Shown here piece after piece: positions 2,328-42,623 of a stretch of DNA of 42,623 nt (the stretch's first letter is position 1; every line of letters starts with the position of its first letter). The translations under genes were made by a program, and so were the position numbers. A model generated the notes under the pieces. That model ran no database searches, was not told the DNA's origin, and was given only the letters and a program-made list of their open reading frames with translations. Origin of the DNA: Chromatiales bacterium (GTDB lineage: Bacteria; Pseudomonadota; Gammaproteobacteria; Steroidobacterales; GCA-2729495); contig JABIQA010000038.1 of the NCBI GenBank assembly GCA_018699155.1, forward strand, positions 1-42,623. The letters are read 5' to 3'.

Positions 2328-3407
2328 TTACTTAGCGTTTAGAACACTTGTGTTGGTAACGAATCGCTCGAACAGTTCTTTATCATGTGCGTACTTAAAT
2401 GCATCGTCTGGGTCGGCGCGCTGTTCCTGAATAGCACTTAAGAGGGCCTGATCCATCAGCTGCATGCCGTAGTTTTGTCCCATTTGCAGCTGAGAAGGTA
2501 TCTGGTGACTCTGGTCGGTCATAATGAGATTCGAAATCGCTCGGGTGTTGATCATGATCTCCATCACAGCTGTGCGGGAGCGACCATCGGGTGTTTTGAT
2601 GAGATTCTGTGTGATCACTGCTCTAAGACTTTGTGCCAGAAAGCTCTTCGTTTGTTCGCGCTGGTCACCCGGTAGCGCATCGATAATCCTATCCAGGGTT
2701 TTTACGGCGCCGATGGTATGCAGGGTGCCAAGTACCAGATGTCCGGTTTCCGCGGCGGTCATGGCCATTGATATGGTTTCGGCATCACGCAACTCGCCAA
2801 CCAGAACGATATCGGGGTCTTCGCGTAATGATGAACGAATGCCATCGGCGAACGATGTAACATGCGTGCCGAGTTCACGCTGAATAATTTGACTTTTATC
2901 AGCTATATGCACGAACTCGATAGGGTCCTCGAGGGTAATGATATTGAGTCTGCGATGCTGGTTCATGTGGTGAAGCATTGCTGCAAGCGTTGTCGATTTT
3001 CCGGTGCCAGTTGAGCCTGTTACCAGCACCATGCCCTGATGGTAATCGCACAATTCTTCAATAATTGGGGGTAGGTTGAGACTTTTGAGAGTTGGGACTT
3101 CGGTTGGGATAAACCGGAACGTCGCACCTACGCCGGTGGCCTTGCGGTAAAGGTTGACGCGAAACCGGCCGCTCTCTTCAGAGACATAAGAAAAGTCGAC
3201 ATCTTGGCCCTTATTGAAAACGTCTTTTTGATTCTTGGATAGAATCTCATCGATATAGCCCTCAAGCTCGGCAGCACCAAGTTCGCGGAATTTAATTGGT
3301 CGGAGTTCACCATGCATGCGCAGCATGGGGGGGATGCCAACGGCAAGGTGCACATCGGAGCAGCCTTGCGAAAGGCCGAGCTTTAAGAATGCATCAATAC
3401 GAGCCAT
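2328..3407 (-). CDS. PilT/PilU-family type IV pilus retraction ATPase (first of a pair)
   Basis: A second retraction-type ATPase of 359 residues. It has an N-terminal PAS-like domain starting with SDVHLAVGIPP (17-27), Walker A GSTGTGKST (131-139), LEDPIEFVH (159-167), Walker B region IVLVGELRD (200-208, catalytic Glu 205) and the His-box LGTLHT (226-231). The segment corresponding to AIRNLIRE in PilT is AISNLIMTD (290-298), keeping NLI but losing the Arg. It lies 24 bp downstream of the HEAT-kinase gene and 31 bp upstream of its paralogue, forming one minus-strand unit. PilT and PilU commonly work as a pair, PilU depending on PilT. No other pilus structural gene is in this window, so any pilus served must be encoded elsewhere. 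Confidence 0.92.
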   Translation of the reverse strand: MARIDAFLKLGLSQGCSDVHLAVGIPPMLRMHGELRPIKFRELGAAELEGYIDEILSKNQKDVFNKGQDVDFSYVSEESGRFRVNLYRKATGVGATFRFIPTEVPTLKSLNLPPIIEELCDYHQGMVLVTGSTGTGKSTTLAAMLHHMNQHRRLNIITLEDPIEFVHIADKSQIIQRELGTHVTSFADGIRSSLREDPDIVLVGELRDAETISMAMTAAETGHLVLGTLHTIGAVKTLDRIIDALPGDQREQTKSFLAQSLRAVITQNLIKTPDGRSRTAVMEIMINTRAISNLIMTDQSHQIPSQLQMGQNYGMQLMDQALLSAIQEQRADPDDAFKYAHDKELFERFVTNTSVLNAK

Positions 3408-3431: not shown

Positions 3432-5834
3432 TTAAGTCTGATTGCTTTTTAGGTCATCCAAAGCTATCACCAACTCTTGCATTGAATCATAGCGGTCTTT
3501 GATTTCGATCGACATTGCTTTTCGCACGATAACCGCAATACTTTCGGGAATGTTCGGGTTCAGTTCTTCGCATGGCGTGCAGTTGCCCTGAACATGCTGA
3601 TACATAACGGCCATATGGTCGCCTTTGCTATATGGAGGCGTGCCGGTGAGCATTTCGTACATGACCACACCGAGACTGTAAATATCAGCATGGTGGCCAA
3701 CCTTCTTGCCGAGAATCTGCTCAGGTGCCATGTACTTGGGTGAGCCGATTACATAGCCGGTTTTGGTTAGCTGTGCGTCGCCAGACTCTGGTCCTGCGGC
3801 TGCGGCGACACCAAAGTCAACAATCTTAAGCAACCCATCATCGTTAATCAGTAGGTTGGCGGGTTTAAGGTCGCGATGCACAACACCAGCCTGATGCGCT
3901 TCGGCCATGCCGAGAGCGATGTCTTTGACCCAGCTTAGCGCCTTGCCAAGAGGCATCGGCTTTTTTTTCTTGATCTCGGCACCCAAAGTATGCGATGGGA
4001 AGTATTCCATGGATATTGCATAGTTGCCGGAAAGTTTCAGGAAGTCATAAATACGGATAACGTTGTTGTGAGTAATTTTTCTAGAAAACCTAAGTTCGTG
4101 GACGAAACGGTTCATCATTTCGTCATCTGTGCTGATAGCAGAGTTTAGGAACTTCAGAATGAGTTGCTCGTTAACGACGGTATCTTCAACTAGCAGCACT
4201 GTGCCGAATGCGCCCTTGCCGACTTTTCCGATATAGCGATATCGACCCTCGATCATGTCGTTGGGTTCGAGTTCATCAATATTAATTCGGTTATCTGTGG
4301 CGATGGTTGGCAGTATTGCTGTCGCCGCCGACATATCACTTGGAGGCAGGGATTGCCCAGTGTCCGAAAGTCTATGATTGCGGGCACTAAGACCAATAAT
4401 GCTGTCGCTAAGCCGATGTTCGATGCGCGCCAGAGCATCGCTGGCAGCATGTTTGACCATTTCGTCGCGACCCTTTGCAGACGCGGCGATTCGGGTTTTC
4501 ACATCTTCGGTAGTTTGTTCGGATGTGACCATCGACAGCGTTTTAATAGCTTCAATGCGCACCTCGTTTTCTTCATGCTTGGTGAGCGGCATAAGTTTGT
4601 GCACGATGCGTTCGTCCCCCACCTTTGCCAGAGCCCTTAGCGCGGCAGGGACTGATTTGTCATCTGCCGCGAGCATTTCGATCAGTGCCGGCATGGCTTC
4701 GCTGCTGCCAATATCGCCCAATGCATCGGCAGCGCGTTCGCGAACCCACCAGTCCGGGTCTTTAGTGGCTGCAATCAGATGCACTACTGCGCGCTCATCG
4801 CGTGTCTGATTGAGAATTTCGATTGCAGATCGTCGGATGTTCTCATCTTCGTCTCTAATCAAATGCAGTGCTGCATTGGTGACTTTGGGGCCGCCAATAG
4901 ATGCCAGTGCATCACAGGCGCGGGAGCGCACCCACCAATCATTATCACCAATAGCATTTAGCAGGTATTTGATGCTATCAGCATCGGCGAGTTCGTTGAG
5001 CACTTCGACAGCGGAACGTCGGGTGTACTCAGATTCGTCTTTTAATGCATCCACAAGATGCGGAATTGTGCCGGGGTCTTTCAGTTGCACTAGGAGTTCT
5101 ACTGCTTTGCCCTGTACTCCAAAATCGGGATCGCACAGCATGGCGCATACAACTTTGATATCTTGAATCTTGTTAAACTGCAATAAGCCCTCAACAGCTA
5201 CCTGGCGCACATCACGATCGCTGTCTTTAAGCAGACCCTCCAGCACCTTGGCAACTTCTGGGCGCTTGAATTTGGAAATAATGCCAGTCAGCGCAACTTT
5301 GACGAGATGATCTCCACCATCAATGCGGGCGATAAGCTCGGGCAGCAGGTCGACTGTTGCAAACTCACGAATCAACTTAAAGGCAGCAACCTGATTCTGA
5401 TGGTCGAGTTGATAAGCACGAGCCAACAAACTTCGTATATTCAACCGCTCAGCATGTGCCCGCAAAATATCAGCCATGAGTGCCATGGAGATATCATCTT
5501 CGCCGATAAGCGCTATAAGACGATCAGGGCTGAAGTTGTGCGAGGCAGATAGCGCTGATCCTGCTCCCGAGGCGCAACTGCGATCAGCATGCTTCAAGGC
5601 TGCGGCAAACAGCGGAAAGCTGCGCTCATTTACGAGATCAGCAAGCACGTTCACCAGGGCGACGGTCTGTTTTTTGTCGGCGTTGGCCAGAGATTCAATG
5701 ATGACTGGCACGGCACTTTGTCCGAGATCTGTCAGCGCTAACAGAGCTTTTTTAGCAACAGCCGTTTGGCAATCCCGTTCTTCTAATAAACGGGATAGGT
5801 TTTTCTCGGCTTTTAATGCGCTGAAAAGCTTCAT
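3432..5834 (-). CDS. HEAT-repeat / serine-threonine protein kinase fusion protein
   Basis: An 800-residue cytoplasmic protein with no signal peptide or clear membrane segment. Residues about 25-475 are a run of HEAT-like helical repeats; the most regular units (about 205-390) repeat patterns such as 'DxDWWVRxRAxDALxxIG', seen at 298-314 and 360-376. A linker of about 50 residues follows. A complete Hanks-type kinase domain then runs from about 530 to 795: glycine loop GKVGKGAFGTV (536-546), ATP-binding Lys 561, Glu 580, catalytic HRDLKPAN (653-660), DFG (673-675) and APE (703-705). All key catalytic residues are present, so an active kinase is expected. It is the promoter-proximal gene of a unit with two PilT-like ATPases. 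I infer, without direct proof, that it phosphorylates or scaffolds the retraction machinery. Confidence 0.93.
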   Translation of the reverse strand: MKLFSALKAEKNLSRLLEERDCQTAVAKKALLALTDLGQSAVPVIIESLANADKKQTVALVNVLADLVNERSFPLFAAALKHADRSCASGAGSALSASHNFSPDRLIALIGEDDISMALMADILRAHAERLNIRSLLARAYQLDHQNQVAAFKLIREFATVDLLPELIARIDGGDHLVKVALTGIISKFKRPEVAKVLEGLLKDSDRDVRQVAVEGLLQFNKIQDIKVVCAMLCDPDFGVQGKAVELLVQLKDPGTIPHLVDALKDESEYTRRSAVEVLNELADADSIKYLLNAIGDNDWWVRSRACDALASIGGPKVTNAALHLIRDEDENIRRSAIEILNQTRDERAVVHLIAATKDPDWWVRERAADALGDIGSSEAMPALIEMLAADDKSVPAALRALAKVGDERIVHKLMPLTKHEENEVRIEAIKTLSMVTSEQTTEDVKTRIAASAKGRDEMVKHAASDALARIEHRLSDSIIGLSARNHRLSDTGQSLPPSDMSAATAILPTIATDNRINIDELEPNDMIEGRYRYIGKVGKGAFGTVLLVEDTVVNEQLILKFLNSAISTDDEMMNRFVHELRFSRKITHNNVIRIYDFLKLSGNYAISMEYFPSHTLGAEIKKKKPMPLGKALSWVKDIALGMAEAHQAGVVHRDLKPANLLINDDGLLKIVDFGVAAAAGPESGDAQLTKTGYVIGSPKYMAPEQILGKKVGHHADIYSLGVVMYEMLTGTPPYSKGDHMAVMYQHVQGNCTPCEELNPNIPESIAVIVRKAMSIEIKDRYDSMQELVIALDDLKSNQT

Positions 5835-35559: not shown

Positions 35560-36282
35560 TTATAGCCAGCCCTGAATACCAACAACCCATTGAGTATTGT
35601 GCGTGCTATCCCCTTCTGCACGCGTCAGATCGGCAGTTTCCCCGTATTCCTGCACGTAGGCTATGCCGATATAAGGCAGTAGGTTTTTACGCCAGACATA
35701 ATGCAGCCTCAATGCCAATTCGGTTTCGTTCACCCCTGAGCCAATTCCCACTTCAGTGTCTTTTTGGCTGAATGCGTTAATCGAAAACTGTGGCGCCAGC
35801 ATCCAGCGATTGGTAATGAGTAACTCTTTTTCTGCATCAAGGTAGAACTCGATGTTGCCACCGCGACCGATCCCCACGTAGCTTTCCACCTCAAAGCTAT
35901 AAGGCGCAGTGCCGCTGAGCCCGAAAACCGCCGAGTCGCGATTCGGTTGCGGACGGATATCTCGTTTCCAGCCTGCTTGTAAATCCCAGAACGCTGAGAT
36001 GCCTCGGCTGTATTGCACAATCAGATTGGCCTCTTCTACCTTGCCGTTTTCGGTGTGGCCATTAGAGCGAATTGACAGACCATTGAGGTCGGTGCCTATC
36101 TGCAGTTGTGCCTGCTCCCAATTAAGCGTATTCGCACCGGAACCGAAACCGTATTCTAGGCTTTGCACAGAAAATTTGGTGATGATCGGGTTGCCGTTCA
36201 TCTTTATATCAGCGAGCACCGGCCCGCTAGAGAACGAAGCGCATAGGGCAAGAAACAGCGTGGTTGGCTTGTTAATGCTCAT
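35560..36282 (-). CDS. copB: Copper resistance outer-membrane protein CopB
   Basis: Predicted beta-barrel outer-membrane protein of the CopB family (PF05275 type) thought to hold copper at the cell surface. The 240-residue protein has a signal peptide ending near VLADIKMNG. It continues with strand-rich sequence such as WEQAQLQIGTDLNGLSIRSN and VEEANLIVQYSRGISAFWDL. It ends in WVVGIQGWL with no C-terminal Phe. The long Met/His-rich N-terminal repeat region known from P. syringae CopB is absent, so this is the short core form. The ATG at 36282 lies 2 bp after the copA stop, so the two are translated together; the frame upstream to 36339 overlaps copA and was rejected. Confidence 0.88.
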   Translation of the reverse strand: MSINKPTTLFLALCASFSSGPVLADIKMNGNPIITKFSVQSLEYGFGSGANTLNWEQAQLQIGTDLNGLSIRSNGHTENGKVEEANLIVQYSRGISAFWDLQAGWKRDIRPQPNRDSAVFGLSGTAPYSFEVESYVGIGRGGNIEFYLDAEKELLITNRWMLAPQFSINAFSQKDTEVGIGSGVNETELALRLHYVWRKNLLPYIGIAYVQEYGETADLTRAEGDSTHNTQWVVGIQGWL

Positions 36283-36284
36283 GC

Positions 36285-38090
36285 TCAACTTACCTCCACA
36301 ACGCGAAACATACCCATCATGTGATACATCAGATGGCAATGATACGCCCAGTTGCCTCTTGCATCGGCAGTGACCAGATAGCTGATTTTTCTGCCGGGCT
36401 GTACGATCACAGTGTGTTTTCGCGGAATACGTTTTGGATCTCCCGTTTCAAGATCGCTCCACATGCCATGCAGGTGGACGGGATGATTCATCATGGTGTC
36501 GTTTACCAGAGTGATGCGTAACCGCTCGCCATAGTTAAATTTCAATGGCTCGGCATTGACAAAGGCCATACCATCCATGGACCACATGTAACGCTGCATG
36601 TTGCCAGTGAGATGCAATTGGATTTCCCGCGTAGGGTCGCGTGGGTCAGGTGTCGGGTAAAGGTTGCGTAAATCGGCGTAGGTGAGCACTCGTCGCCCAT
36701 TATCGACCAGTCCGATACCCGGGTTGTTGAGTTGAGTCTGTGGCATTTCTGCACGCATGTCAGTTTGCGGGCCTTTTTCGGAGCTCTTGTGAATGACGGG
36801 TGCAGTGCTGCCCATGCCCGCCGGCGCTGGGCTGCGGTGATTCATGTGGGGATCGGTCATGTTGGCGTGATTCATTTTGGGGCTGGCCATATCCATGTTC
36901 GCGTGGTTCATTTTGGAGCCGGCCATATTTCCGTGATTCATGCCACTATGACCGCCACCGGCGTGAGCCATACTCATACCCATGTCGCTATGGGTAAGAA
37001 TAGGTCGTGGGTCCATCGTGGGTACATCTGCGTTTAATGACAGATCCGGAGTTAGCATGCCGAGGGCATAGCCGGAGCGGTCGATGTCTTGAGCAAAGAT
37101 GCTATAGGCTGCATCGCTTTCTGGCTCGACGATGACATCATAGGTTTCGGCCACACCAATACGAAAGTCATCGACAGTCACGGGCTCGATAGCCTGCCCA
37201 TCGGCGCTGACAACTTTAAGTTTCAGGCCAGGAATGCGAATATCGAAAAACGTCATGGCGGCGGCATTGATGAATCTTAAGCGGACCTTTTCGCCACGTT
37301 TGAACAAACCCTTCCAGCGGTCTGCAGGTGTCTGACCGTTCATCAAAAATGTGTAGGTTGTGCCGTTGACGTCCGAGATGTCTCGATCAGACATCCGCAT
37401 CATATTCCACATATGCCGTTCGGAAGCAGTGGCTGATAGCCCTTGCGATTGAACGTCTTTCCACGTATCCACTAAAGTTCGTTCGTTCCAATTGTAGAGA
37501 TCACTCTGTTTTTTCAGATTGCTATAAATGCTTTCGGGTTTTTCGTCACTCCAATCCGACAGTATGATGACGTAATCGCGTTCGGTGGGGAAAGGCTCGC
37601 CGCCCTCAGGCTCAATGACTATTGCGCCCAAAACCCCGGTTTGCTCCTGAAACCCGGAATGACTGTGATACCAGTAGGTACCGCTTTGGTTAAGTGGAAA
37701 ATTGTAATTAAACGTTTCGCCAGGTCTTATGCCGGCGAAGCTCAAGCCAGGGACACCGTCCATGTCTTCGGGCAGAATAATGCCATGCCAGTGAATGGAG
37801 CTGTCGACACCAAGTTGGTTGGTCACGTTCATATTCACGTGCTGACCTTCTTTCCAGCGCAGTGTGGGCCCTGGCAGTGAACCGTTGACAGTTGTGGCGA
37901 TGCGGTTTTTCCCAGTGAAGTTCACCTGCTGATTGCCGATAGTCAGATTGAAGGTATTGCCGCTCAGGTTATTGTTTGCATCCGCTCTGGTCATGAGCCC
38001 TGAGGCAACGAGTGAGGCGCCCGCAGCAACGCCTGTAACAAAGCGTCGCCGCGAAAGCAGTTGGTGCGAGGTAAAAGGAGGCTGATTCAT
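36285..38090 (-). CDS. copA: Multicopper oxidase CopA, copper resistance
   Basis: Periplasmic multicopper oxidase of 601 residues (PcoA/CopA type) that oxidises Cu(I) to less toxic Cu(II). A twin-arginine signal, RRRFVTG at 14-20, sends the folded protein out. Copper sites are read from IHWHG (99-103), WYHSHSGF (140-147), HPVHLHGMW (536-544) and YHCHLMYHMMGM (583-594), the last giving the type 1 and trinuclear ligands. Residues 367-417 are a Met/His-rich insert in which MNHGNM and MNHANM units recur about every 10-12 residues. Such inserts bind extra copper and help substrate delivery. It follows the CopL-like gene by about 100 bp and is coupled to copB. Confidence 0.95.
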   Translation of the reverse strand: MNQPPFTSHQLLSRRRFVTGVAAGASLVASGLMTRADANNNLSGNTFNLTIGNQQVNFTGKNRIATTVNGSLPGPTLRWKEGQHVNMNVTNQLGVDSSIHWHGIILPEDMDGVPGLSFAGIRPGETFNYNFPLNQSGTYWYHSHSGFQEQTGVLGAIVIEPEGGEPFPTERDYVIILSDWSDEKPESIYSNLKKQSDLYNWNERTLVDTWKDVQSQGLSATASERHMWNMMRMSDRDISDVNGTTYTFLMNGQTPADRWKGLFKRGEKVRLRFINAAAMTFFDIRIPGLKLKVVSADGQAIEPVTVDDFRIGVAETYDVIVEPESDAAYSIFAQDIDRSGYALGMLTPDLSLNADVPTMDPRPILTHSDMGMSMAHAGGGHSGMNHGNMAGSKMNHANMDMASPKMNHANMTDPHMNHRSPAPAGMGSTAPVIHKSSEKGPQTDMRAEMPQTQLNNPGIGLVDNGRRVLTYADLRNLYPTPDPRDPTREIQLHLTGNMQRYMWSMDGMAFVNAEPLKFNYGERLRITLVNDTMMNHPVHLHGMWSDLETGDPKRIPRKHTVIVQPGRKISYLVTADARGNWAYHCHLMYHMMGMFRVVEVS

Positions 38091-38193
38091 TTTAGTGGTA
38101 TCCCGAGTTCGTCATTGCGAAACGAAAGATTGAGCATTGAAATCTGCGAAGCTCTGTATTGAGCGGGTTATCGCAGACGCACTGATCTTGTGT

Positions 38194-38559
38194 TTAGGCG
38201 CAATCGGGTGGGATTGGTACGCCTTCAGATAGAGGCGCAGAATGAACGTCCACGTAGGGAGGATAATCGGCAATCTGCAGTGCCAGCTGTTCTTCCGATG
38301 TTTTGCTAAACGCAATGCTTGCACTGGGGCAGTCATTGCAGTCGTTGTCGCACATCTGATCGGCCGGCATTTGGTGATTTTCCAGCTCAGTTGTCTCGCA
38401 GTGTTCATGAGGTGCTTCCACGGACACAACAATACCGGATGCAGTGTTGTCGTTGGCATGTTCGTTGCAGTTCGCATGGGCGAGACTGATGCCCTGCAAA
38501 GACAGCAGCAGGCACAGCAGCATGTTTCCAACGGCTCGCGAACTCATAATATTTTCCAT
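38194..38559 (-). CDS. CopL-like small Cys/His-rich exported protein
   Basis: A 121-residue exported protein. The start MENIMSSRAVG is followed by a hydrophobic signal segment that ends near LAHA. The mature part is rich in Cys and His: NCNEHAND, APHEHCETTE, then DQMCDNDCNDCPS (around 69-80), giving a CxxxCxxC cluster, and a Pro-rich end, PIPPDCA. Position first in a CopL-CopA-CopB order matches the copLAB operon of Xanthomonas, in which CopL is needed for copper-responsive expression. I therefore propose the same role. Direct homology was not tested. The ATG at 38547 (MSSRAVG) is an alternative start, and a different small metal-binding protein is the main alternative identity. Confidence 0.68.
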   Translation of the reverse strand: MENIMSSRAVGNMLLCLLLSLQGISLAHANCNEHANDNTASGIVVSVEAPHEHCETTELENHQMPADQMCDNDCNDCPSASIAFSKTSEEQLALQIADYPPYVDVHSAPLSEGVPIPPDCA

Positions 38560-38657
38560 TCTACACTCTGGAGTATTGATTAGGGTCAAACATGGTTGCG
38601 TTCTTGCCGGGGATTATCGTTTTGTTGGTTACTAAATCTGTTCGACAACTTTATAAC

Positions 38658-38781: not shown

Positions 38782-40101
38782 CTAACCCCTTATATGTTGC
38801 CAAAGAGGACCATGCCTGCCGGATTTGCGCAGCGCTGCAAACAGTCGCTTATTGAAATTGATTTTCAGCGCCGGAACCGACCAGGTTGGAAACTTATCTT
38901 TGTTGGCTTCCAGTAAAATTTCGATGTCCTTTCGGAATGCCATTCGCTCTGCACGATAGCCAGGATCCAATGCTTCGAAATCATCGATCCAGATCATGAT
39001 AAATACGCTGAATGGATCGAGGTCAGCAATGAAATCCAGCGTCTGTTGCACATCCTCGATAGTTTCGCCTTCGGTACCGATAATGAATGTGTGGCAATCA
39101 GGGATGCCGGCTGTTTCACATGTGTTGTGTAGCTTTCGGATATGCTCGGTGGTAAAGCCTTTGTGCATTTTTTTTAGCACATGGTCTACACCTGAATCTG
39201 ATCCAACTTCCATGCCGGCACAGCCCGCGGCCTTCGCCAGTTCGGCAAACTCCATATCAAAACCCAATGGGTTGGCGTAGCAAGTCCATGGAATCGTCCA
39301 GTTGCGCTTTATTAGTTCGCGACAGACCTTCTTGGCGTGAGTTTTCGGCAGATTAAATACTGAGTCAACGATAAAGAAGTGATTTATTTCGGGGCAGTCG
39401 TTAACCGCAGCAAACATTTCATCGACAACGGCGACAGGGTCGCGGGTGCGGCCAACCCGGCCTTCAATGATGGGGTAGGTGCAATAGTCGCAACGTAGCG
39501 GACAGCCACGTTTGGTTTGGATAGAGTCGACACCGAAGCTCTGGTAATACGTGTGCGCCGCAAGTGAACGGTCTGGAGGTATCAATGTGTTCATGTCCAG
39601 AAATTCGGGTGGTCGCGGGCTTGATATTATCTGACCATCGATACAGCGATGCAGAGCGCCGATTGAGCTTATACCTTCGCCTGTTTCAAGAGCCTTCAAC
39701 AGCTTTGGGAACGCCTGTTCGCCTTCACCAGAAATGCCGTAATCGGGTTTGAGTCGAGCCATTAATTCTTTGGGCATTACACTAAAGCCTGAGCCCCCAA
39801 GAACCACAGATGCAGCACAGCTTTCGCGAATGGTAACGATTAGGTCAGCGTAGTAGTCGAGATTGTCTTCCATACCGGAATAATCATTGTTCTGGATATT
39901 GCGCATTCCCAGAGCCACAACATCCGGATTTATTTTGCCGAGAGTTTCTTTCAGGTGCGCGTCAGGGTCGTCGACAAAGCACAGGTCAATCAGCTCTTTG
40001 TCATGGCAGTCGGGCGTGTTGGCCATGATATACAGCAGTCCGATGGGTACTACTGCATCCGGAAGTATTTCCCGATTGCCGGAGATAAAAGCGATTTTCA
40101 C
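38782..40101 (-). CDS. B12-binding radical SAM enzyme
   Basis: A 439-residue radical S-adenosylmethionine enzyme. Residues 1-150 form a cobalamin-binding-type domain, starting MKIAFISGNREILPDAVVP and containing VVLGGSGFSVMP (99-110) and GISGEGEQA (122-130), but without the DxHxxG cobalt-ligating motif. The SAM cluster motif CxxxCxxC is C200-PLR-C204-DY-C207, and later MEVGSDSG (297-304) belongs to the radical SAM barrel. Class relatives include methyltransferases and ladderane-type cluster enzymes; the substrate is unknown. The start is 15 bp after the chorismatase stop in the same direction, so it is the last gene of the operon. It could methylate or otherwise modify an aromatic or lipid product. 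B12 binding without the His motif is also seen in other members. Confidence 0.88.
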   Translation of the reverse strand: MKIAFISGNREILPDAVVPIGLLYIMANTPDCHDKELIDLCFVDDPDAHLKETLGKINPDVVALGMRNIQNNDYSGMEDNLDYYADLIVTIRESCAASVVLGGSGFSVMPKELMARLKPDYGISGEGEQAFPKLLKALETGEGISSIGALHRCIDGQIISSPRPPEFLDMNTLIPPDRSLAAHTYYQSFGVDSIQTKRGCPLRCDYCTYPIIEGRVGRTRDPVAVVDEMFAAVNDCPEINHFFIVDSVFNLPKTHAKKVCRELIKRNWTIPWTCYANPLGFDMEFAELAKAAGCAGMEVGSDSGVDHVLKKMHKGFTTEHIRKLHNTCETAGIPDCHTFIIGTEGETIEDVQQTLDFIADLDPFSVFIMIWIDDFEALDPGYRAERMAFRKDIEILLEANKDKFPTWSVPALKINFNKRLFAALRKSGRHGPLWQHIRG

Positions 40102-40116
40102 GAATTCTTTGCCTCG

Positions 40117-41163
40117 TTAAGCCGACGCGGTATTGCCCGCAAGGGCATGGCTTGCTTGATAGACGGCTTCAACTTCTACCAGCAAATCGGAACGGCATAT
40201 GTCGCCTAGTAGCACTATATAGTCTGGCGTACTGTGATCAGAGTTATGGAGTAGCTTTTTCAGGCTATCGACAGCCAGGGGGAAATCGGCTTTATCGCGA
40301 ACATAGATCCGCAGGGATCCAGTGGAGAAGCTTTGGGCCTTGACGGTTTGCTTCAGTGCGGCGTCGCGCAAACTAATTATATTGAGCGTTGTCTCTTCTG
40401 CTTGGTTTATGACTTTGCTGGTGTGCACACTTTCATGCCCTAGTATGCTCGCAGTCCCCGATACAAGTAGAAGCGGAAATTCACACTGGCTTAATAATAC
40501 AGCGCGGGCGAATGAGGGGCTGCGAGGCCCGTATTGGCGAGGATACTGAAATGCGCTCATTTGGCGGGGGTTTTCGACACGGATATTGTCGCTCTTGGCG
40601 GCGAGTATCGTAATGCCCAGCCGCGTTCCTGCAGCACTGCCGATGGCTGTTCCGGCAGGGAGTGCTTCAATGTTGCAGTTGTGTGACTCGAATGCAATCG
40701 CGCGGCCTAGAGAAAACTGGCGGTAGCGTTCGCTGTCACCATCACCTTTGTTAATCTCAGGAATGTAATTCCAGGTGCGGACTATGTCTTGATAGTTACG
40801 CTGGACAACCTCATTCAGCATGTTGTTATAGATATCTTGAGTTAGTGAACTCAGGTCGCTAGTGTCATCGATAAACACTGTGGTGTGAATCATTAGCCAC
40901 GATTTACTAGCAGCAAAAAACATGTTGTTAGCTATTCTCCCGCTGTGCACGGGTTCGCTGGTTTCCCAAACTTCGAATTTGGCCCCGTTGCCCAGTACCT
41001 GAAGAGGTATGGGGATATTTACCGTGCCGTCAACGGATTGCTCCGACGCATCTCGGCCAAAACAAAAGCGGAAGAGGGTGTTGGTTTCGGTTGAGCTGTC
41101 TGTCTTGTCTAGGCGCACCGTGAGCTCAGAACAAGAGGGGATTTTTTTAGCTGCTATTGACAT
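40117..41163 (-). CDS. Chorismatase, hydroxybenzoate synthase family (FkbO/Hyg5/XanB2-like)
   Basis: Enzyme expected to hydrolyse chorismate and release pyruvate, giving 3-hydroxybenzoate, 4-hydroxybenzoate or a cyclohexadiene acid, depending on subtype. The 348-residue protein carries family stretches that I recognise from XanB2 and FkbO: TWNYIPEIN (130-138), RYRQFSLGR (146-154), GTAIGSAAGT (171-180), ENPRQMSAFQYPRQYGP (197-213), SGTASILGHESVH (235-247), and the C-terminal GDICRSDLLVEVEAVYQ (320-336). The latter holds Glu residues near the active site of the family. In Xanthomonas, XanB2 feeds xanthomonadin pigments and ubiquinone. Here it lies between an FAD enzyme (3 bp upstream) and a radical SAM gene. 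Product subtype cannot be read from sequence alone. Confidence 0.86.
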   Translation of the reverse strand: MSIAAKKIPSCSELTVRLDKTDSSTETNTLFRFCFGRDASEQSVDGTVNIPIPLQVLGNGAKFEVWETSEPVHSGRIANNMFFAASKSWLMIHTTVFIDDTSDLSSLTQDIYNNMLNEVVQRNYQDIVRTWNYIPEINKGDGDSERYRQFSLGRAIAFESHNCNIEALPAGTAIGSAAGTRLGITILAAKSDNIRVENPRQMSAFQYPRQYGPRSPSFARAVLLSQCEFPLLLVSGTASILGHESVHTSKVINQAEETTLNIISLRDAALKQTVKAQSFSTGSLRIYVRDKADFPLAVDSLKKLLHNSDHSTPDYIVLLGDICRSDLLVEVEAVYQASHALAGNTASA

Positions 41164-41166
41164 GTG

Positions 41167-42513
41167 TTAGCTTTTTCGCCGTTTGGCTGGCCCGAAAATA
41201 CCAGCCATAAAGAAGATGAACTTAAATACGAGTAATCGCAGGTGTACCGAGTTACTTTTATACACATCACCGGCAAGCATTGACACCACCGCCTGTTCTA
41301 CACCCAATATATTGCGCGGGTTCTGGAATAAATACTCCATTTGAGGCGTTGTAAACCGGTATATAAACCAGCTGAAAGCCTTTACTGCACGGGTCATTGC
41401 CTGCTCGTAGCGCTTGCGTGTAATGGCGTACCTTAGCCTATTTCCCCGCAACCAATGGTCGACTAAAGGCACTACTCGTTCTGCACCTGACATTGCCAGA
41501 TATACACCGCTCGAGAAGATTGGGTCGATAAAAGTATGTGCATCTCCGATAAGGGTGAACCCTTCTCCGCTGCGTTGGCTGGACGTATATGAATAATTCG
41601 ACAAAGCTTTTGCAGGGAATAGCTGCATGCCATTCTTAAAGCGCTTGTGTGCTGCAAAGGATTTTTTCACGGTATTGCCGAGGAAATCGCATAAGGATTC
41701 AGATGGCTTGCGCGTCTTTAGGTAGTCAGGGCTCGAGACAATGCCAACGCTCATCAGCTCGTCGCCGAGTGGTATAAACCACATCCAGCCTTGGTCAAAC
41801 CAATACACATTGATATCTCCAGAGCCATCACCCTGGTTAAGCGGAATACCGGAGAAGTGGGCAAAAACTGCAGAAGCTGTGTGTCGTGAGTTCGGTATGC
41901 GCCACTTTTGCTGTTTGGATATGAGTGATTGTTGCCCGGATGCATCAAGTACATAGCGACACTGCCACGCGCTAATATTGTTGTCAGCATCACGGACCTT
42001 CAGTTGGTGGGCGCCATCACTGGCTAGAGAAACGGCCATAACTTCATGCTGTTCGAGGGTTTGCACGCCACTGGATGTACTGTTGTCGAACAGTATTTTA
42101 TCGAGTTTGGAGCGCTCAATTTGATAGGCATGAGGTGGTGACTCACCCAGAGCATTGGCGAAGGGAAAGCGGGTTGGTTTGGCTTTGATGCTCGGACTGG
42201 TAAAGACGGCCGCATTTTTTTGGATGCCAGCAGCTGCCACCTGATCGAGTACACCGAGCTTCTCAAAGATAGGCAGGTTCATTGGTAGGAGTGATTCGCC
42301 GATATGAAAGCGAGGATGTGTTTCTCTTTCAAATAGAGTGACTTGCCAGCCTTTTTGTGCAAGCAGTGTTGCTGCAGTAGTGCCGGCAGGCCCGCCACCT
42401 ATAACAATGATATCCCTCGTCTGGGTGTCCTTGTTAGCCGATGGCGTAGCTGCTTCAATATTCATCTGGTCATTGTACTTGAACAGTGGTTTGCTCAAAA
42501 TAGCGTCTTGCAT
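41167..42513 (-). CDS. Halogenase-superfamily FAD-dependent oxidoreductase
   Basis: A 448-residue flavoprotein. It has the Rossmann FAD motif GGGPAG (39-44) and GESLLPMN (72-79). A Lys (99) sits in IQKNAAVF, matching a conserved Lys of phenolic flavin halogenases. GWMWFIPL (242-249) corresponds to the GWxWxIP motif, and FIDPIFSSGV (328-337) to the Fx.Px.Sx.G-type motif of flavin halogenases. It also looks like a geranylgeranyl-reductase-type oxidoreductase, so halogenation is a hypothesis. The C-terminal VFKFIFFMAGIF may touch the membrane. The start is uncertain: the ATG at 42513 lies in a 16-bp palindrome, and the ATG at 42465 is an alternative. It is the first gene of a unit with the chorismatase and radical SAM genes. 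Confidence 0.82.
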   Translation of the reverse strand: MQDAILSKPLFKYNDQMNIEAATPSANKDTQTRDIIVIGGGPAGTTAATLLAQKGWQVTLFERETHPRFHIGESLLPMNLPIFEKLGVLDQVAAAGIQKNAAVFTSPSIKAKPTRFPFANALGESPPHAYQIERSKLDKILFDNSTSSGVQTLEQHEVMAVSLASDGAHQLKVRDADNNISAWQCRYVLDASGQQSLISKQQKWRIPNSRHTASAVFAHFSGIPLNQGDGSGDINVYWFDQGWMWFIPLGDELMSVGIVSSPDYLKTRKPSESLCDFLGNTVKKSFAAHKRFKNGMQLFPAKALSNYSYTSSQRSGEGFTLIGDAHTFIDPIFSSGVYLAMSGAERVVPLVDHWLRGNRLRYAITRKRYEQAMTRAVKAFSWFIYRFTTPQMEYLFQNPRNILGVEQAVVSMLAGDVYKSNSVHLRLLVFKFIFFMAGIFGPAKRRKS

Positions 42514-42525
42514 GAATATTCATGC
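42510..42525. repeat. 16-bp perfect palindrome at the flavoprotein start
   Basis: GCATGAATATTCATGC at 42510-42525 is a perfect inverted repeat that contains the proposed ATG start at 42511-42513 of the minus-strand flavoprotein gene. A two-fold symmetric regulator site, or a small structure affecting translation, is possible; chance is also possible given its AT-rich centre. Confidence 0.45.
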
Positions 42526-42592
42526 GTTGGATATCTTAAACACAGCAATCTGGGTGTTGATTCAATCATAGTTAGGGAAGTGGGGCTTAAAA

Positions 42593-42623
42593 GTGGAAAA
42601 ATCGCCAGAAGAGCAGAAGTTGG
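42593..42623 (+). CDS. Possible start of a plus-strand gene at the right edge
   Basis: From the GTG at 42593 the frame reads VEKSPEEQKL and is open to the window end. GGGGC lies about 6 bp before the GTG. If real, the gene would be divergent from the flavoprotein operon across about 80 bp. Only ten codons are visible, so this is a tentative note. Confidence 0.15.
   Translation, partial: MEKSPEEQKL

Follow-up and report, generated by a model that had tools for sequence, protein, structure and literature searches.

The DNA analysed here, referred to as the window, is the complete contig JABIQA010000038.1 of a Chromatiales bacterium (GCA_018699155.1), 42,623 nucleotides in length. It is contig C13 of a genome of 2.24 Mb in 218 contigs. 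Close to one end it carries three adjacent genes on the minus strand, which in the direction of transcription encode an FAD-dependent halogenase-like flavoprotein (41167..42513, 448 residues), a chorismatase of the FkbO/Hyg5 family (40117..41163, 348 residues) and a B12-binding/radical S-adenosylmethionine (SAM) protein, P0001 (38782..40101, 439 residues from a GTG start). This trio was described as one operon in an initial annotation made from the sequence alone, and the open reading frame (ORF) coordinates agree with it, giving spacings of 3 bp (flavoprotein/chorismatase) and 15 bp (chorismatase/radical SAM). The family labels are also borne out, by Pfam matches to PF04820 (1.3e-31) and PF01494 for the flavoprotein, PF21168 (8.5e-29) for the chorismatase, and PF04055 (4e-19) for the radical SAM protein, which has its CX3CX2C motif at residues 200-207. 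The trio is syntenic in both of the congeners examined, with proteins 88-97% identical, one congener having its radical SAM gene truncated by a contig end. Given this synteny, and the recurrence of the chorismatase-radical SAM pair in other genera and phyla, the arrangement is not due to chance.

On the other side of the flavoprotein gene, a divergent intergenic stretch of 79 bp (42514..42592) leads to a plus-strand gene of which only the first 31 bases (42593..42623), comprising the first ten codons (VEKSPEEQKL), precede the contig end. It is identified as an ApeE-like acyl carrier protein (ACP) gene from the full-length congener proteins, which match the Pfam PP-binding family at 3.1e-11.

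The continuation was read from the congener G002 (contig JAQWPD010000044.1, 106 kb), which has the same neighbourhood as the window and served as reference. Divergent from the trio are genes for an ACP, an AMP-ligase, an acyltransferase, a LolA-like protein and an MMPL exporter, then a chain-length-factor-like (CLF-like) protein and a ketosynthase (KS). Farther out come an acyltransferase, an ACP, COG4648, a dehydratase, a glycosyltransferase, a thioesterase, a further dehydratase, a ketoreductase (KR) and a KS. Of 15 proteins of the congener cluster that were compared with the Ape proteins of E. coli CFT073, 13 have a match (BLAST E<=0.01, most of them far better), with identities of 59% to ApeR, 57% to ApeQ, 45% to ApeK, 44% to the ApeD acyltransferase and 42% to the ApeJ glycosyltransferase, and weaker ones of 26% to both the ApeH ligase (PF00501) and the ApeM MMPL protein. 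The CLF and LolA proteins have no Ape BLAST match, yet both have Pfam matches (LolA_3 1.3e-13). In the window's own genome, one half of the cluster is on contig C213 and the exporter-to-ligase part on contig C189 (91% DNA identity to the congener). The CLF stretch falls into an assembly gap, and the remaining cluster genes are present. With parts on C213, on C189 and at the window edge, this is thus one aryl polyene (APE) cluster spread over three contigs.

In the congener and on C213 and C189 the cluster has an APE core (KS, CLF-like partner, KR, dehydratases and ACPs). It also has an activating ligase (PF00501), with the chorismatase as acid source, and LolA-like, MMPL/RND, acyltransferase and glycosyltransferase genes for export and decoration. 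It is near certain that the trio forms the end of an APE cluster of the xanthomonadin type, and its genes predict a yellow pigment as the product. The suggestion that the operon is the end of a larger cluster continuing past 42623 is therefore upheld, by the congener contig and by C213 and C189. The accompanying remark that no KS, ACP or ligase is visible was right for the KS and ligase, which lie on those two contigs, but it overlooked the ACP start at the contig edge. The alternative offered at the time, a compact, self-contained three-gene pathway to a modified hydroxybenzoate, is not needed, and we rate it as very improbable. It draws some support from two genomes whose chorismatase-radical SAM pair is not accompanied by a full APE cluster over the stretches that were read. 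The trio of this genus directly adjoins the APE cluster, and for this genome, with KS, ACPs and ligase on C213 and C189, the candidate is ruled out.

The cluster shares with the xanthomonadin/arcuflavin type a chorismatase-made starter, an AMP-ligase, a KS with a partner that has an N-terminal KS domain, KR, dehydratase, glycosyltransferase, acyltransferases, LolA and an exporter. In the arcuflavin cluster of Azoarcus (arcA halogenase, arcB chorismatase, arcT ligase), the halogenase gene adjoins the chorismatase gene (Table 1 of PMC3949708), as it does here. The earlier statement that chorismatases start APE-like pigments, and that relatives of halogenases are found in the clusters concerned, is right. 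In two other genera of the order (G008 and G091), a flavoprotein and a chorismatase likewise lie beside APE genes, and so this pair is ordinary for the type of cluster. The arc gene list in PMC3949708 differs in containing no B12-radical SAM gene, while here one lies in the chorismatase operon. It also differs in containing arcM: no methyltransferase was seen by eye in the congener cluster, where arcM itself was not searched for. The cluster resembles E. coli CFT073 apeA-R, in addition to the 13/15 matching proteins, in its two ACPs, thioesterase, glycosyltransferase, COG4648 and RND exporter. In CFT073, 4-hydroxybenzoate comes from UbiC and the ring is methylated by the SAM-dependent ApeB (PMC8253772). 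By contrast, the present cluster has a chorismatase of its own as well as a B12-radical SAM protein, and an ApeB profile found no match in the cluster stretches of the congener or of the own genome. The ape gene table of PMC8253772 contains no B12-radical SAM enzyme either, and the initial annotation was correct to single this protein out as the unexpected member of the trio. A recurrent B12-radical SAM enzyme in an otherwise known kind of cluster is what is new here. Among the titles and abstract openings searched, none joins aryl polyenes, xanthomonadin or chorismatases with a B12-radical SAM enzyme, most subscription journals lying outside the coverage.

The chorismatase scores 100.5 bits with PF21168 (cut-off 27) and falls below the cut-off of NCBIfam TIGR04444 (195 against 325 bits). 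It aligns to the solved structures of Hyg5 (5ag3, 1.2e-36) and FkbO (4bps, 1.4e-34). By hand count from the Hyg5 alignment, Gly236, Cys323 and Glu330 align with Hyg5 G240, C327 and E334, and Ala173 replaces the third Hyg5-type glycine. The Gly-Cys-Glu set is conserved in 18/18 chorismatase rows compared, three of which repeat genes already counted. Hyg5-type (CH-II) enzymes are marked by the catalytic Glu plus Gly/Gly/Cys residues (PMC7170507). From these residues the product is likely to be 3-hydroxybenzoate, with the proviso that the product of a chorismatase is not accurately predictable from sequence alone (PMC3949708). In a separate search of plasmids, chorismatases were seen in 11 records, and the one region inspected had no APE genes.

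The flavoprotein is closest in structure searches to the annotated halogenases CndH (3e1t, 7.1e-46), ChlB4 (3.7e-45) and CmlS (3.3e-43). It contains GGGPAG (GxGxxG), GESLLP, a lysine within GIQKNAA, and WMWFIP at 243 (WxWxIP). The lysine and WxWxIP, which we take to be halogenase motifs, are conserved in 5/5 flavoprotein rows, representing four distinct genomes since two rows are one congener gene. With 186 bits against a cut-off of 900, the protein lies far below the CmlS equivalog level and is a relative of CmlS, not CmlS itself. Most likely it halogenates the aromatic ring, by analogy with xanthomonadin, which is halogenated (PMC8253772). It could instead be a hydroxylase, a dehydrogenase or an inactive relative. 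The low CmlS score, the second place of the QhpG mono-oxygenase model and the nearly equal score of the flavoprotein/dehydrogenase structure 3nix with that of CndH all favour this, set against the three top structures and the retained motifs. A further point against halogenation is that arcuflavin is non-brominated despite the listed halogenase gene arcA (PMC3949708), which leaves the reaction of the flavoprotein uncertain. A role other than halogenation must be taken seriously as the smaller of the two chances. FLAVhal matches in eight of the loci surveyed below (L063, L066, L068-L071, L076 and L078) belong to a longer relative, 24-28% identical, and were rejected as orthologues of the trio gene.

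The unexpected member of the trio is the B12-radical SAM protein. Its best NCBIfam match is TIGR04072 ('lipid biosynthesis B12-binding/radical SAM', ladderane-type), with 271 bits against a cut-off of 360 and a match that ends at 359 of 443; BzaD and tryptophan 2-C-methyltransferase follow. Membership of TIGR04072 is thus rejected by the cut-off, as is that of the TsrM equivalog TIGR04428 (139.5 against 500 bits). The B12-binding family PF02310 gives 29.0 bits against a cut-off of 32.1; the structural model still aligns to TsrM over residues 1-438, including the N-terminal domain. The radical SAM core and CX3CX2C motif are present, and the three cysteines are invariant in 63/63 aligned members.

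Within the order, proteins similar to P0001 (E<=1e-50) occur in 9/396 genomes, including the own genome and two congeners. A scan of a wider genome collection gave 251 confirmed loci, the best 80 of which were analysed; in GC-rich loci, genes were located by tblastn and stop-to-stop profile searches. These loci form a close clade of 35, with 47-97% identity to P0001 and members from Gammaproteobacteria, Myxococcota and Planctomycetota, and a far set of 45 TIGR04072-like loci with 29-38% identity. The alignment holds 63 of 81 possible rows, leaving out L072 (in-frame stop), the partial sequences of L076, L079, L081 and L112, and 13 far-set loci dropped for thinning (among them a duplicate contig end and some incomplete ones). 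In a tree rooted on two weak plasmid radical SAM relatives, one of them annotated tsrT, a single branch, 1.25 long, carries the 31 close-clade rows used (SH-aLRT 100, from a short search with no bootstrap). P0001 and 4/4 other close-clade proteins score below the TIGR04072 cut-off, and 5/5 far-set proteins above it. On the basis of the separate branch and these scores, we regard the close clade as an unnamed sister of TIGR04072. The two share domain order and type II fatty-acid-like neighbours, and differ in that the close clade has aryl-acid neighbours. The initial label of a TIGR04072-type enzyme was accordingly right as to the nearest family and wrong as to membership.

Some features of other loci deserve mention. 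In loci L088-L109 (Desulfobacterales and relatives), TIGR04072-type proteins are often found in a KS-KS-KR-ACP-thioesterase-glycosyltransferase run, accompanied in 13 far-set loci by a polysaccharide-deacetylase-like gene (labelled by eye). In two far-set loci (L124 and L127), weak ApeB-like methyltransferase matches lie near the TIGR04072-type genes. Separately, within the APE cluster of G008, a genome of the same bacterial family, there is a B12-radical SAM protein that belongs to a different subfamily (L040, 12309-13898); the ApyD, PhpK and BchE models come nearest, and it falls below the cut-off of each. This case suggests that B12-radical SAM enzymes have been recruited into APE clusters more than once.

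A structure for P0001 was predicted from the 63-sequence alignment with a pLDDT of 93.6; a model from seven sequences was poor (pLDDT 68.8) and was not used. Both Foldseek and VIA-align 2 place it nearest to TsrM (6wtf: Z 36.8, rmsd 2.7, 433 residues), followed by MgmA, AprD4 (Z 30.7), OxsB (Z 28.7) and CysS. TsrM is also the solved structure closest in sequence, with both domains covered. In TsrM (TsrT), Arg69 lies beneath the cobalt, and Glu273 denies SAM access to the cluster, with the result that no radical is formed (PMC8992657, PMC13331322). Arg67 of P0001 is in the place of Arg69, and is invariant in 63/63 aligned members and in 79/79 loci that cover the position. In the close clade this invariance is partly selected, as the Arg67-Asn motif is part of one of the two patterns used for the scan. 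The arginine is also kept in the far-set sequences inspected, which cannot match that pattern. In place of Glu273 there is Val248, and only 3/63 aligned members have Glu. A non-radical mechanism of the TsrM type is therefore disfavoured, and P0001 also differs from TsrM in its low equivalog score and type of cluster. The simplest reading of the model is that the protein would be a radical methylase whose cobalamin face resembles that of TsrM. CysS, of the cystobactamid pathway, has the same fold class and methylates pantetheinylated 3-methoxy-4-aminobenzoate, showing that a B12-radical SAM methylase can act on a pantetheinylated benzoate (PMC12846815). It differs in alkylating a methoxy carbon, and in having a bulky residue, not Arg, under its cobalt (PMC12846815). 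The own genome contains MetH and a cobalamin riboswitch, and hence B12 is used in this organism.

The surroundings of the radical SAM genes were surveyed with profiles, built in this analysis, for 14 APE core families and the chorismatase; many of the loci are on short contigs. A chorismatase is present in 10/35 close-clade loci, two of them from this genus and eight from outside it, compared to 1/45 far-set loci. An ApeB match is found in 0/10 of these chorismatase-bearing loci. At least three of the 14 core families are found in 14/35 close-clade and 29/45 far-set loci, and two Myxococcota loci have 14/14 together with the chorismatase and the radical SAM gene. Conservation of the trio as a unit, which the initial annotation proposed as its own check, holds in part: the full set was found only within the genus, but a chorismatase accompanies the radical SAM gene in the eight loci outside it, and the flavoprotein-chorismatase pair is found in two other genera without this radical SAM protein nearby.

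Whole-genome counts were made without this genus, covering 33 of the 35 close-clade loci (32 genomes) and 44 far-set loci (the duplicate L092 omitted), with a background of 140 genomes from the phylum of G410, which represents the close clade only in part. At E<=0.001, a chorismatase (TIGR04444) is found in 19/32 close-clade genomes, 5/44 far-set genomes and 13/140 of the background; the corresponding figures at E<=1e-30 are 13/32, 3/44 and 3/140, two of the last three being carriers of the radical SAM gene. For the stricter threshold, the comparison with the far set gives a Fisher p=0.0005, and that with a background of 1/138 gives 4e-10; those two carriers were removed from this background, and at least two carriers without a chorismatase (G408 and G410) remain in it. 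In 0/32 close-clade genomes does a chorismatase match reach the TIGR04444 cut-off.

A second aryl-acid enzyme shows a similar pattern. NosL-like proteins (3-methyl-2-indolic acid synthase, TIGR04158) are found at E<=1e-30 in 8/32 close-clade genomes, seven at 254-263 bits and one at 108, and in 0/44 far-set genomes, a zero with no control match in that set that rests on the same model matching 8/32. At this threshold no genome has both a chorismatase and a NosL-like protein, though three of the seven have weak chorismatase matches; the non-overlap of the seven with the 13 chorismatase genomes has a chance of 0.015 if the two are independent. Counting the seven, one or other aryl-acid enzyme is present in 20/32 close-clade and 3/44 far-set genomes (p=3e-7). 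NosL-like genes lie near the radical SAM gene in Myxococcota loci L066 (7537-8721), L068 (12805-15381), L069, L070 and L078, and in the two loci tested the proteins score about 260 bits, below the TIGR04158 cut-off of 400. Locus L068 also has KS/CLF and a ligase, for which BagE/FevW is the best family and flexirubin FlxY the third. From their gene content, loci of the L066 type could possibly make an indolyl or tyrosine-derived polyene. Because the close-clade protein travels with a chorismatase or a NosL-like enzyme, it would appear to act on the aryl head.

On the basis of these observations, we hypothesise that the operon is the end of the cluster that makes the starter and tailors the head group, and that its B12-radical SAM protein C-methylates the aryl head by a radical route (probability about 0.55). 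The chorismatase would convert chorismate to 3-hydroxybenzoate, possibly also to 4-hydroxybenzoate, which the cluster AMP-ligase would load onto a carrier protein. KS/CLF, KR and the dehydratases would extend this starter to the polyene, and acyltransferases and the LolA/MMPL pair would attach and export it; these steps, from loading to export, are proposed by homology to the systems studied in E. coli, Xanthomonas and Azoarcus. Halogenation of the ring, as known from xanthomonadin, is the most likely role of the flavoprotein. The B12-radical SAM protein most likely would add a C-methyl group to the aryl head, probably with the head bound to its carrier, using methylcobalamin as methyl donor and a second SAM to generate a 5'-deoxyadenosyl radical. 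The identity of the cluster, its gene content, the recurrence across phyla, the link to aryl-acid enzymes and the TsrM-like predicted fold were observed here; from them we infer the reaction of the protein and its site.

Several observations weigh against this proposal. The complete trio was found in one genus only (3/3 genomes examined), its pairs recurring more widely, and no close-clade radical SAM gene is near the flavoprotein-chorismatase-APE loci of G008 and G091. Conversely, G018 and G192 have the chorismatase-radical SAM pair without a full APE cluster within 46 and 38 kb, and L067 (G231) has the radical SAM gene without any APE gene in about 20 kb. Neither aryl-acid enzyme is present at E<=1e-30 in 11/32 close-clade genomes. 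Similarly, 11/25 close-clade loci of at least 9 kb have no chorismatase or NosL-like gene nearby, and in four of these (L056, L057, L060 and L087) the genome has a chorismatase at another place (E<=1e-30). The Fisher tests take no account of relatedness among the genomes, and since the NosL-like loci form one clade in the tree, that association may be a single event. The fold neighbours AprD4 and OxsB are non-methylating. Finally, in L056 (Woeseiaceae) the gene directly after the radical SAM gene encodes an ApeB-like methyltransferase (46% identity to ApeB), and another class I SAM methyltransferase is present in L056, L061, L064 (a fragment) and L086. The idea that the radical SAM protein is a simple substitute for ApeB is weakened by the ApeB-like neighbour and, given all these methyltransferases, cannot apply to every locus.

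The substrate could alternatively be the polyene chain, with the protein catalysing C-methylation or isomerisation of the acyl-ACP. This draws on TIGR04072 being the best family, with a model named for lipid biosynthesis. Since this sister family sits among type II fatty-acid-like genes with no aryl-acid gene seen alongside (29/45 far-set loci with at least three APE-like core families, only one with a chorismatase), the shared substrate would on this account be an unsaturated acyl chain. In anammox lipid clusters, B12/SAM-radical proteins have indeed been proposed to act on polyunsaturated chains (PMC2649909). We nevertheless consider a chain substrate unlikely, as the link with aryl-acid enzymes in the close clade has no counterpart in the far set, the close clade is set apart by its branch of 1.25, and the TIGR04072 match ends before the C-terminus. 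TsrM, the nearest fold, has an aromatic ring as its methylation target, and BzaD likewise acts at a ring carbon. BzaD is furthermore termed a methyltransferase (PMC8123684).

It is also conceivable that the reaction is radical but not a methylation, namely a rearrangement, dehydration or ring closure like those of OxsB, AprD4 and BchE relatives. The high ranking of AprD4 and OxsB among the folds agrees with this, and the lack of conservation of the TsrM glutamate leaves the radical path open. With TsrM nearest in both sequence and fold, and B12-radical SAM enzymes being mostly methylases (PMC12846815), such a reaction seems decidedly improbable, and radical C-methylation of the aryl head is preferred.

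A broader proposal can be put forward tentatively, as one that may well prove wrong: that the close-clade protein marks aryl-lipid pigments across phyla, in which the head is alkylated by a radical reaction instead of classical SAM chemistry and the aryl acid comes interchangeably from a chorismatase or, in the Myxococcota branch, a NosL-like enzyme, which would lead to an undescribed indolyl or tyrosine-derived aryl polyene. TIGR04072 would then be the non-aryl branch of the enzyme family. If C-methylation of the head is correct, it would add a further head-group decoration to ApeB methylation, O-methylation and halogenation, and would tie APE pigments to the supply of B12. The mass shift of the pigment would then offer an experimentally easy route to the reaction of an uncharacterised clade of B12-radical SAM enzymes, one that sits beside the 'ladderane' family, whose chemistry is a long-standing question.

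Downstream of the trio, on the same strand, are genes for a CopA multicopper oxidase and CopB copper resistance (35560-38090), which as far as seen are functionally unrelated to it. Between copA and the trio (38112-38589) there are two overlapping minus-strand ORFs of 139 and 131 residues, neither with a Pfam match, one of which is probably a real small gene on the basis of 94-95% identity to congener ORFs. At the other end of the window, two PilT-like ATPase genes (1232-2296 and 2328-3407, the ATPase label being by eye) adjoin a gene (3432-5834) for an 800-residue protein that combines HEAT repeats with a serine/threonine protein kinase domain.

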